Of a stretch of DNA of 64,000 bases, positions 40,586 through 48,139 are shown piece after piece. The number at the start of each line of letters is the position of its first letter. Positions within the stretch are counted from its first letter, which is position 1. Position numbers and translations under genes: made by a program. The notes under the pieces were generated by a model that had not been told where the DNA came from, searched no databases, and worked only from the letters and a program-made list of their open reading frames with translations. Source of the DNA: Candidatus Siliceabacter maunaloa. GTDB lineage: Bacteria; Actinomycetota; Thermoleophilia; Solirubrobacterales; Solirubrobacteraceae. The DNA lies in NCBI GenBank assembly GCA_024330185.1, contig JANDLV010000018.1, positions 1-64,000 of the forward strand, read 5' to 3'.

Positions 40586-40593
40586 GCAGTGTG

Positions 40594-40599
40594 TATGGT
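40594..40599 (+). promoter_or_regulatory. -10 box TATGGT for the CcdA-PIN module
   Basis: TATGGT ends exactly 6 nt before the ATG at 40606, a leaderless promoter. Confidence 0.6.
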
Positions 40600-40605
40600 G
40601 TGCGC

Positions 40606-40866
40606 ATGGCGCGGGTGAACATCACGCTGCCCGACGAGCTGCTCGAACGGGCCAGGTCGGCGGGCTTGAACGTCTCGCGGGTGTCCGCCCTCGCGCTGGC
40701 CGAGGAGCTCGACCGGCGCGCCAAGACCGCAGAGCTGGATGCCTACCTGAGCCGCCTGGACGCCGAGCTCGGCCCCGTCGCCGAGGACGAGCGCACCGCA
40801 GCGCGGGAGTGGGCGGACAGAGTGCTGCCCTCACCCTCCGGGCTCGGCGCGGCGCGCACCGGGTGA
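40606..40866 (+). CDS. CcdA-like antitoxin
   Basis: 86 residues. A ribbon-helix-helix N-terminus (ARVNITLPDELLERARSAGL then NVSRVSALALAEEL) should bind its own promoter; the acidic C-terminal half (TAELDAYLSRLDAELGPVAE) should wrap the toxin. Start fixed by the -10 box 6 nt upstream. Its stop overlaps the toxin's GTG (GTGA), the standard toxin-antitoxin layout. Confidence 0.85.
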   Translation: MARVNITLPDELLERARSAGLNVSRVSALALAEELDRRAKTAELDAYLSRLDAELGPVAEDERTAAREWADRVLPSPSGLGAARTG

Positions 40867-41249
40867 CGCTCGTCCTCGATGCCGGAGGGCTCAGCGCGCT
40901 GGCCGGCCAGCGAGGCAGGCTCGAGGAGCTACGCCGCCGCGCCCACTGGCCCGCGCAGGTTCCGGCGGTCGTCCTGACCGAAGCGCTGACCGGGGATCAC
41001 CGCCGCGACGTGCACGTGAACCGGCTGCTCAAGGCGTGCCAGGTCCGCGCCGTGGACGAGCAGACGTCCCGCGAGGCGGCCCGCCTGCGCACCGCGACCG
41101 GTCGCGCGGGGACCGTCTCCGCGGTCGATGCCATCGTGGCCGCCTTCGCGGGTGCCCGCCCTGACGCGATCGTGCTCACCAGTGATCCACGCGACCTCGA
41201 AGCGCTGGCCGAGTACGCCGCGCTGCCGATCACCGTCGCCGGTGTCTAG
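40863..41249 (+). CDS. PIN-domain toxin (VapC-like RNase)
   Basis: 128 residues. The four acidic positions of a PIN nuclease are visible: LVLDAGGLSAL (D near 6), VVLTEALTGDH (E), GTVSAVDAIVAAFAG (D) and IVLTSDPRDLEALAEY (D). Expected to cleave tRNA or other RNA in a metal-dependent way when the antitoxin is lost. Full length and apparently intact. Paired with a CcdA-like rather than VapB-like antitoxin. The cassette lies between pilM and a dead pilD copy. Confidence 0.87.
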   Translation: MTLVLDAGGLSALAGQRGRLEELRRRAHWPAQVPAVVLTEALTGDHRRDVHVNRLLKACQVRAVDEQTSREAARLRTATGRAGTVSAVDAIVAAFAGARPDAIVLTSDPRDLEALAEYAALPITVAGV

Positions 41250-41974: not shown

Positions 41975-42230
41975 GTCCAAAGCCACTCAGATAGCGTTCC
42001 AGCTCGACAACGAGAGCCTGCGCCAGATCGACGAGCTCGCGACCGCCAAGTCCTGGTCGCGGGCGCAAGTGCTTCGCGTCGCCGTCGACGAACTGCTCGC
42101 TACGCGACGGGAGGCGACGATCGACGCCCAGCTCGCCGCCGGCTATGGCGCGCAACCGCCGGGCGCCGAGGAGGATGCGTGGGCGGAGATGACCGTCGAT
42201 GCACTGCGGACGGCCGACCTTGCCTGGTAG
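41973..42230 (+). CDS. Ribbon-helix-helix antitoxin
   Basis: 85 residues. The N-terminal half (TQIAFQLDNESLRQIDELAT then KSWSRAQVLRVAVDELL) is a ribbon-helix-helix DNA-binding domain; the C-terminal half (GAEEDAWAEMTVDALRTADL) is acidic and probably binds MazF. Start fixed by TATGAT 6 nt upstream. The toxin frame overlaps its end. Confidence 0.85.
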   Translation: MSKATQIAFQLDNESLRQIDELATAKSWSRAQVLRVAVDELLATRREATIDAQLAAGYGAQPPGAEEDAWAEMTVDALRTADLAW

Positions 42231-42561
42231 TGGACCGCCACGTCGTGGCGAGATCTGGCTTGCCGAGATGGACAAGGCGCGGCCAGCGGTCGTGATGCAT
42301 CGCGACTTTGCCGGACGAGCCCTCAATGCGGTTCTCGTCGCGCCGTTGACGACCACGATCCGTGACATCCCGACCGCCGTCAAGCTGGGGCCGAACGACG
42401 GCGTCGATCGCGAATGCGTCGCGATGCTCGACGCGCTGACGCTGCTGCGCAAGGACCGGTTCGTGCGACGCGTCGGTGAACTCACACCCAGCCGCATGGC
42501 CGACCTCTGTCATGCGCTCGCGATTGCAGTGGCGTGCGAGCTCCCGCTCGCGAGCGGTTGA
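42199..42561 (+). CDS. mazF: MazF/PemK-type endoribonuclease toxin
   Basis: About 120 residues. Core motif PPRRGEIWLAEMDKARPAVV, then LNAVLVAPLTTTIRDIPTAV, ECVAMLDALTLLRKDRFVRR and a C-terminal helix. MazF cleaves single-stranded mRNA at short motifs. The start is uncertain: ATG at 42199 overlaps the antitoxin by 32 nt; a TTG at 42220 would give the usual short N-terminus. The usual Pro-Thr/Arg-Gly after the D is shortened here, a small deviation. Otherwise intact. Confidence 0.87.
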   Translation: MHCGRPTLPGSGPPRRGEIWLAEMDKARPAVVMHRDFAGRALNAVLVAPLTTTIRDIPTAVKLGPNDGVDRECVAMLDALTLLRKDRFVRRVGELTPSRMADLCHALAIAVACELPLASG

Positions 42562-48001: not shown

Positions 48002-48015
48002 GGGCCCGCAGGCCC
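48002..48015 (-). terminator. Possible expression-platform hairpin of the riboswitch
   Basis: GGGCC-TGCG-GGCCC on the complement, 3 nt after the aptamer and about 55 nt before pilA. It may be the ligand-controlled terminator or a translation-control element. No T-run, so the mode is unclear. Confidence 0.45.
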
Positions 48016-48018
48016 TTC

Positions 48019-48098
48019 GGTGGTAGCCCGGCTGGCTCCTCACGTCGGAGCCCCTTGGCTTTGCGTCCCACCCTCGCGAGTGGTTTGCCCTTTGCACC
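48019..48098 (-). promoter_or_regulatory. Cyclic-di-GMP-I (GEMM) riboswitch upstream of pilA
   Basis: The complement has the conserved core of the class I aptamer in order: GGTGCAAAGGGCAAACC, a short hairpin ACTCGCGAGGGT, GGGACGCAAAGCC, a GGGGCTC...GAGCC-type variable stem, then CCGGGCTACCACC closing P1 (GGTG/CACC). This matches the GEMM-I consensus (GGGCAAACC, GGGACGCAAAGCC, tetraloop receptor) on which c-di-GMP binds. The target gene, a type IV pilin, is a classic member of the regulon. Confidence 0.92.
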
Positions 48099-48139
48099 TT
48101 GGTCTGGCAGGTGCTGTATCGGCCCTCCCGCGCGGAGCT

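Follow-up and report, generated by a model that had tools for sequence, protein, structure and literature searches.

How does the second messenger cyclic diguanylate (c-di-GMP) reach the major pilin gene of a monoderm actinobacterium? This question is raised by the pilA gene of the soil bacterium Candidatus Siliceabacter maunaloa (order Solirubrobacterales), which lies in the stretch of 64,000 nucleotides (nt) analysed here (the window) and whose 5' leader holds a c-di-GMP-I riboswitch aptamer. A preliminary description of this DNA had recognized the aptamer but did not give its strand, and three features described below were absent from it: a WhiG-type promoter, an outer helix (P0) and a hairpin at the Shine-Dalgarno sequence (P5). 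Like the aptamer, all of them lie on the minus strand, and coordinates are therefore given in descending order. What is new here is the architecture of the leader together with what is likely a double gate for c-di-GMP.

The aptamer and its promoter

A cmscan search of the whole window returned a minus-strand match to RF01051 (c-di-GMP-I, or GEMM-I) at 48099-48019, which scores 61.4 bits (E 1.5e-9) against a gathering score of 35 bits and spans the entire model from position 1 to 87. It is the only riboswitch found in the window with all Rfam models, and the RF01051 search gave no match in 14 control genomes. Hereby, P1 is formed by GGUG (48098-48095) and CACC (48022-48019), P2 and P3 are present along with the conserved core GGCAAA...GACGCAAAGCC...AGCCGGGCUNCC, and four positions are flagged as non-standard pairs. 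The preliminary description had proposed a GEMM-I aptamer and had staked this on the covariance-model score; with a full-length match well above the cut-off and the core in place, the proposal is borne out. The window aptamer shares with the family the core blocks, P1 to P3 and a GNRA-type P2 loop (GCGA), whereas the consensus receptor of P3 (CUAA...UAUG), into which the tetraloop docks in many though not all members, is missing, its columns being largely deleted in the RF01051 alignment. Judged by its sequence, it is an ordinary member of the family, and the novelty lies in the surrounding leader: the model includes neither P0 nor P5, both of which are found around the window aptamer.

The next minus-strand gene after the aptamer is pilA (47947-47543), whose start codon (ATG, 47947-47945) lies about 71 nt downstream, placing the aptamer in the 5' leader. 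Its product (MLHKLRNRAADQKGFTLIELLVVILIIGILAAIALP...) carries the type IV pilin N-methylation motif PF07963 (N_methyl, E 5e-10); the GFTLIE-type methylation motif, the hydrophobic segment and the pil gene cluster around the gene identify it as a type IV major pilin precursor.

Two doubts about the sensor itself can be addressed from these data. One would be that the aptamer has decayed and no longer binds c-di-GMP, so that the leader with P0 and P5 is all that matters, as might be suspected from relatives in which the aptamer has been lost (L240, L241) or is strongly altered (L268-L281). We regard this as very improbable in view of the full-length match, the covariation of P1 across pilA leaders and a canonical second copy in the same genome, which holds two c-di-GMP-I riboswitches (second copy at G000:C34:34044-34123, L001:1501-1580; 64.6 bits). 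The other doubt concerns the ligand. The window aptamer has G at model position 10 (AAGGGC), which we take to be G20, the c-di-GMP type, with A in the cyclic GMP-AMP (cGAMP) types. This speaks against a different cyclic dinucleotide, for instance the cGAMP sensed by GEMM-Ib in Geobacter; although the GEMM-I class also includes cGAMP aptamers (PMC8835794), such a ligand appears highly unlikely here.

Just upstream of the aptamer, the sequence TAAA-N15-GCCGATAC (48142-48116) agrees with 11 of the 12 consensus positions of WhiG/FliA (sigma-28) type promoters, with the -35 element TAAA at 48142-48139, the -10 element GCCGATAC at 48123-48116 and a predicted transcript start near 48109. Such promoters were defined as TAAA-N14-16-GCCGATAA upstream of a gene with no more than two mismatches, and the one ahead of pilA is the sole site on either strand of the window that scores at least 11. 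A score of at least 10/12 is found at 51% of 49 pilA aptamer sites and at 13% of the other aptamer sites in the order, compared to about 0.4% of shuffled upstream regions and 0% for the reversed consensus.

In line with this promoter, the genome encodes a WhiG ortholog (NCBIfam equivalog NF004935; 366.9 bits, cut-off 343), whose closest solved structures are the sigma-factor entries 6pfj and 6pfv, presumably the S. venezuelae WhiG complex. It also encodes an RsiG homolog of 86 amino acids (aa) with one c-di-GMP motif and similarity to the R. radiotolerans RsiG structures 7lq2-7lq4 (E about 5e-10). This homolog was found with a looser motif pattern, the exact DNA pattern having given no credible match; its motif EVEVSYRRRLLHGKID has four of the five residues of E(X)3S(X)2R(X)3Q(X)3D, Q being replaced by H. 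In Streptomyces and Rubrobacter, WhiG and RsiG form a pair under c-di-GMP control. Ten GGDEF matches are present in the genome.

Elsewhere in the phylum, 50% of 20 c-di-GMP-I sites (L248-L267) have a WhiG-type promoter of at least 10/12 within 80 nt upstream, and L253 and L260 show perfect 12/12 promoters when 120 nt are scanned. This suggests that the pairing of WhiG-type promoter and c-di-GMP-I riboswitch is general in the phylum.

Helices around the aptamer

In the aligned pilA leaders, GCCAG ends a short distance of a few nucleotides ahead of the aptamer, and the spacer that leads to the Shine-Dalgarno sequence contains CUGGC. In the window these strands, at 48108-48104 and 47984-47980, would form the outer helix P0. 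Over the 49 pilA leaders P0 is 95.9% paired, with compensatory changes at three of its five pairs, the double changes being C-G to U-A (L046, L056), A-U to G-C (L022, L107) and G-C to A-U (L114). When the 3' strands were permuted, 0 of 2000 permutations reached the observed pairing, and 133 of 5000 did so when only the 13 distinct haplotypes were used, and P0 gave 2/500 in a second permutation test. Moreover, GYCRG and CUGRC are both present in 31 of 38 pilA leaders, compared to 6 of 108 other aptamer leaders. The permutation tests are column-based, as a thermodynamic duplex test of P0 against shuffles was uninformative in GC-rich RNA; RNAalifold, applied to the whole leader alignment, recovered only part of the aptamer and neither P0 nor P5.

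The strongest independent support for P0 comes from pilA leaders that keep it as a short plain hairpin and in which Rfam finds no c-di-GMP aptamer up to E 1 (L240, L241, L213, L197, L209, L189). L240, which shares its genus with L022 and L107, has the hairpin GAGCUGGGGCU...GGGCUUCGGCUC, and L241 belongs to the same genus as L020, L024 and L052. Because these leaders retain P0, the comparison indicates that the aptamer occupies the loop of a hairpin that is present even in its absence.

A second hairpin, P5 (GUCCC-UAUAGGA-GGG(c)AC, 47965-47948), which is based on the fold and on flank covariation, contains the strong Shine-Dalgarno sequence already recognized in the preliminary description (AGGAGGG, 47957-47951), ahead of the pilA ATG. 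Across the 49 leaders, the mean stem score of P5 is 9.63 with matched flanks and 7.49 ± 0.28 with flanks swapped between leaders (z about 7.6). Examples are GAAUCC-AAGGA-GGAUUC (L026), UGAUCC-AAGGA-GGAUCA (L054), AUUCUC-AGGA-GAGAAU (L078) and GACUC-AAGGAGGAC-GAGUC (L042). In the second permutation test P5 gave 0/500, the known helix P1, used as positive control, giving 1/500.

Between aptamer and P5, the spacer hairpin P4 (GGGCC-UGCG-GGCCC, 48015-48002) forms in the constrained fold; it is the GC hairpin that had been placed after the aptamer and was covered by the span noted at the time (48002-48098). Intrinsic termination was rejected, since P4 has no T run and no terminator-like site was found on the minus strand of the window. 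Pairing of AGGUGC (the 5' strand of P1) with GCACCU, which follows CUGGC, is striking in the window but was rejected as a general switch at 131/500 permutations across the leaders, and a pairing of P4 with the Shine-Dalgarno sequence (6/500) is weak after 12 tests and was not accepted.

Proposed mechanism and sign of control

The reading that we favor, with a probability of about 0.68, is that of a c-di-GMP-I riboswitch in a pilA leader transcribed from a WhiG-type promoter, with control by RsiG-WhiG, closure of P0 upon binding, translational control via P5 and a slight lean towards an ON switch. Hereby, WhiG would read the pilA promoter and RsiG would hold WhiG when c-di-GMP is bound, by analogy with Rubrobacter. 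Within the transcript, binding of c-di-GMP would close P1 of the aptamer and thus bring together the two P0 strands, which lie about 120 nt apart. P0 would then enclose the aptamer and P4, and its closing would alter the access of the ribosome to the Shine-Dalgarno sequence, which P5 is predicted to mask before the start codon. Translational control is favored over an intrinsic terminator because the minus strand has no terminator-like site and the ribosome-binding region lies in a conserved hairpin. As to the sign, we lean slightly, at little better than even odds, towards c-di-GMP favoring pilA translation, because aptamer-less pilA genes keep P0 closed, so that the ligand-bound leader should look like these genes in their expressed state.

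The same riboswitch might work with the opposite sign, for which we see somewhat less than an even chance: c-di-GMP would turn pilA off along with the RsiG-WhiG block, silencing existing mRNA as transcription stops. In Streptomyces, RsiG is armed against WhiG when c-di-GMP is high (PMC8325347), the class I switches of C. difficile are OFF switches (PMC6200980), and at the second site of the present genome, located ahead of the gene for a 331-aa protein whose N-terminus resembles a signal peptide, the Shine-Dalgarno sequence abuts the 3' end of the aptamer, suggesting an OFF switch there. In pilA leaders, by contrast, the start codon follows the aptamer only after roughly 55-95 nt, and leaders without the aptamer keep P0 as a constitutive hairpin.

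Rather unlikely, to our judgment, is an action on mRNA stability or on the access of Rho. As P0 pairs the first nucleotides of the transcript, its closing could protect the 5' end or block Rho, which would fit the finding that many leaders have GCCAG 7-10 nt downstream of the -10 element and hence close to where transcription is predicted to begin, as well as the lack of an intrinsic terminator on the minus strand. Yet the covarying P5 masks the Shine-Dalgarno sequence, which points to translation, and family f3 has GCCAG at a greater distance from the -10 element.

Several observations weigh against the favored reading. The expressed state of the aptamer-less leaders is an assumption, the logic of RsiG leans to OFF, and so does the precedent of C. 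difficile cited above. P5 is weak in the window's own leader (fold z -0.33 vs shuffles); P0 and P5 do not overlap, and none of the cross-pairings tested proved a clear competitor that would link the aptamer to the ribosome site. The permutation tests of P0 and P5 preserve column make-up but not relatedness, and their results are support rather than proof. Finally, the RsiG homolog has H where the published motif has Q.

Two known systems can be compared with this arrangement. In C. difficile, likewise a monoderm, the leader of the major type IV pilin gene pilA1 also contains a c-di-GMP riboswitch, Cdi-2-4, but its class II aptamer is unrelated and it is a transcriptional ON switch (PMC6200980); the leader described here shows no terminator and follows a WhiG-type promoter. 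In Rubrobacter, WhiG-RsiG control of pili has been proposed from structures and mapped promoters (PMC8325347). That system shares with ours the WhiG ortholog, the single-motif RsiG homolog and the WhiG-type promoter in a type IV pilus cluster; it comes without mention of a riboswitch, whereas here, apart from the H for Q in the RsiG motif, the transcript adds a second c-di-GMP sensor. We thus infer that pilA is probably gated twice by c-di-GMP, through WhiG-RsiG and through the riboswitch. A double c-di-GMP gate on a pilin gene is not described in the literature searched.

The gene cluster and the lineage

Downstream of pilA on the minus strand, three minor pilin-like genes follow (518, 311 and 422 aa; 47414-43661), the 518-aa protein having an N_methyl match above the cut-off and the other two below-cut-off matches to N_methyl and PilX_N. 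The cluster further includes a prepilin peptidase (43785-42871; PF06750 and PF01478), PilM (40444-39377; PF11104, E 2.1e-25) and, at 60004-57603, PilC-like (T2SSF, PF00482) and PilT/PilB-like (T2SSE, PF00437) genes, all on the same strand. According to the translated open reading frames, 41855-41332 (minus strand) holds a second, broken prepilin peptidase copy that appears to be truncated, and small toxin-antitoxin-like genes (ribbon-helix-helix and PIN-like; PemK-like) lie within the pilus cluster on the plus strand at 40591-41249 and 42199-42561, as judged from translations only.

RF01051 matches occur in 79 of 151 sampled genomes of the order and in 155 of 396 of the phylum, there in 100 of 237 genera. 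The riboswitch is thus of a known kind and common in the lineage, yet scarcely discussed in the literature searched; the earlier remark on how little they have been studied in Actinobacteria agrees with that literature but should not be taken to mean that they are rare. In the order, 42 of 150 sites sit ahead of a pilin gene, and pilA homologues are found in 120 of 232 genomes. The preliminary description had also stated that the riboswitch controls the major pilin: the arrangement of aptamer and pilA is indeed kept in the 49 pilA leaders, which come from three families of the order; the link to pilA is thus conserved, and the riboswitch probably controls the gene. A start codon could be called for 99 non-pilin sites; at 78 of them the protein encoded next has an N-terminus that resembles a signal peptide or a membrane segment (by a crude hydrophobicity rule), and at 56 the start codon lies within 20 nt of the aptamer. 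The same-clan variants c-di-GMP-I-GGC (RF03167) and c-di-GMP-I-UAU (RF03168) are the best fit for the diverged pilA leaders L219, L215, L184 and L194, with L219 alone scoring above a cut-off. Two genomes have tandem pilA genes in which every copy has a separate leader and riboswitch (L078/L079 in G030, L046/L068 in G079).

In the genus g14, the pilA leaders retain the WhiG-type promoter, GCCAG/CUGGC and P5, and between the P0 strands they carry an RNA of the form GGCARAGC...GYGU-NGCAAAGCCGGCGRCYCUC...GGGGGACGCAUCGCC that Rfam does not recognize and that matches no member of the c-di-GMP-I clan up to E 1. When five of these RNAs were used to build a model, it matched 14 genomes, once each and all in g14 (L268-L281; e.g. 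L275:1501-1571, minus strand); a model from all 14, searched against 399 genomes of the class, gave no match beyond this genus. Most of the 14 loci show a pilA-like gene immediately downstream, the rest being short or without the anchor used by the script. The helices of this RNA covary, with six pairs changed on both sides and a score of 0.255 vs 0.185 (0/500 shuffles). Its model also gives weak matches to canonical aptamers (L060, L142, L042, L002), each at the aptamer's own position, so that the g14 RNA is probably derived from c-di-GMP-I; canonical c-di-GMP-I sites exist elsewhere in several g14 genomes. A tentative and rather doubtful extension would see in P0 after a WhiG-type promoter a socket for exchangeable sensors, filled with a canonical aptamer in most lineages, with none in some, and in g14 with an RNA whose altered core and 3' half may sense something other, or more, than c-di-GMP.

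If the proposed double gate holds, one second messenger would act on a single pilin gene of a monoderm lineage at two levels, at the promoter through WhiG-RsiG and in the transcript through an RNA sensor, which would open the question whether both layers act alike or oppose each other, as in a threshold or a pulse. Leaders that hold a canonical, an altered or no aptamer within one conserved helix moreover provide a natural series for learning how aptamers plug into leaders.
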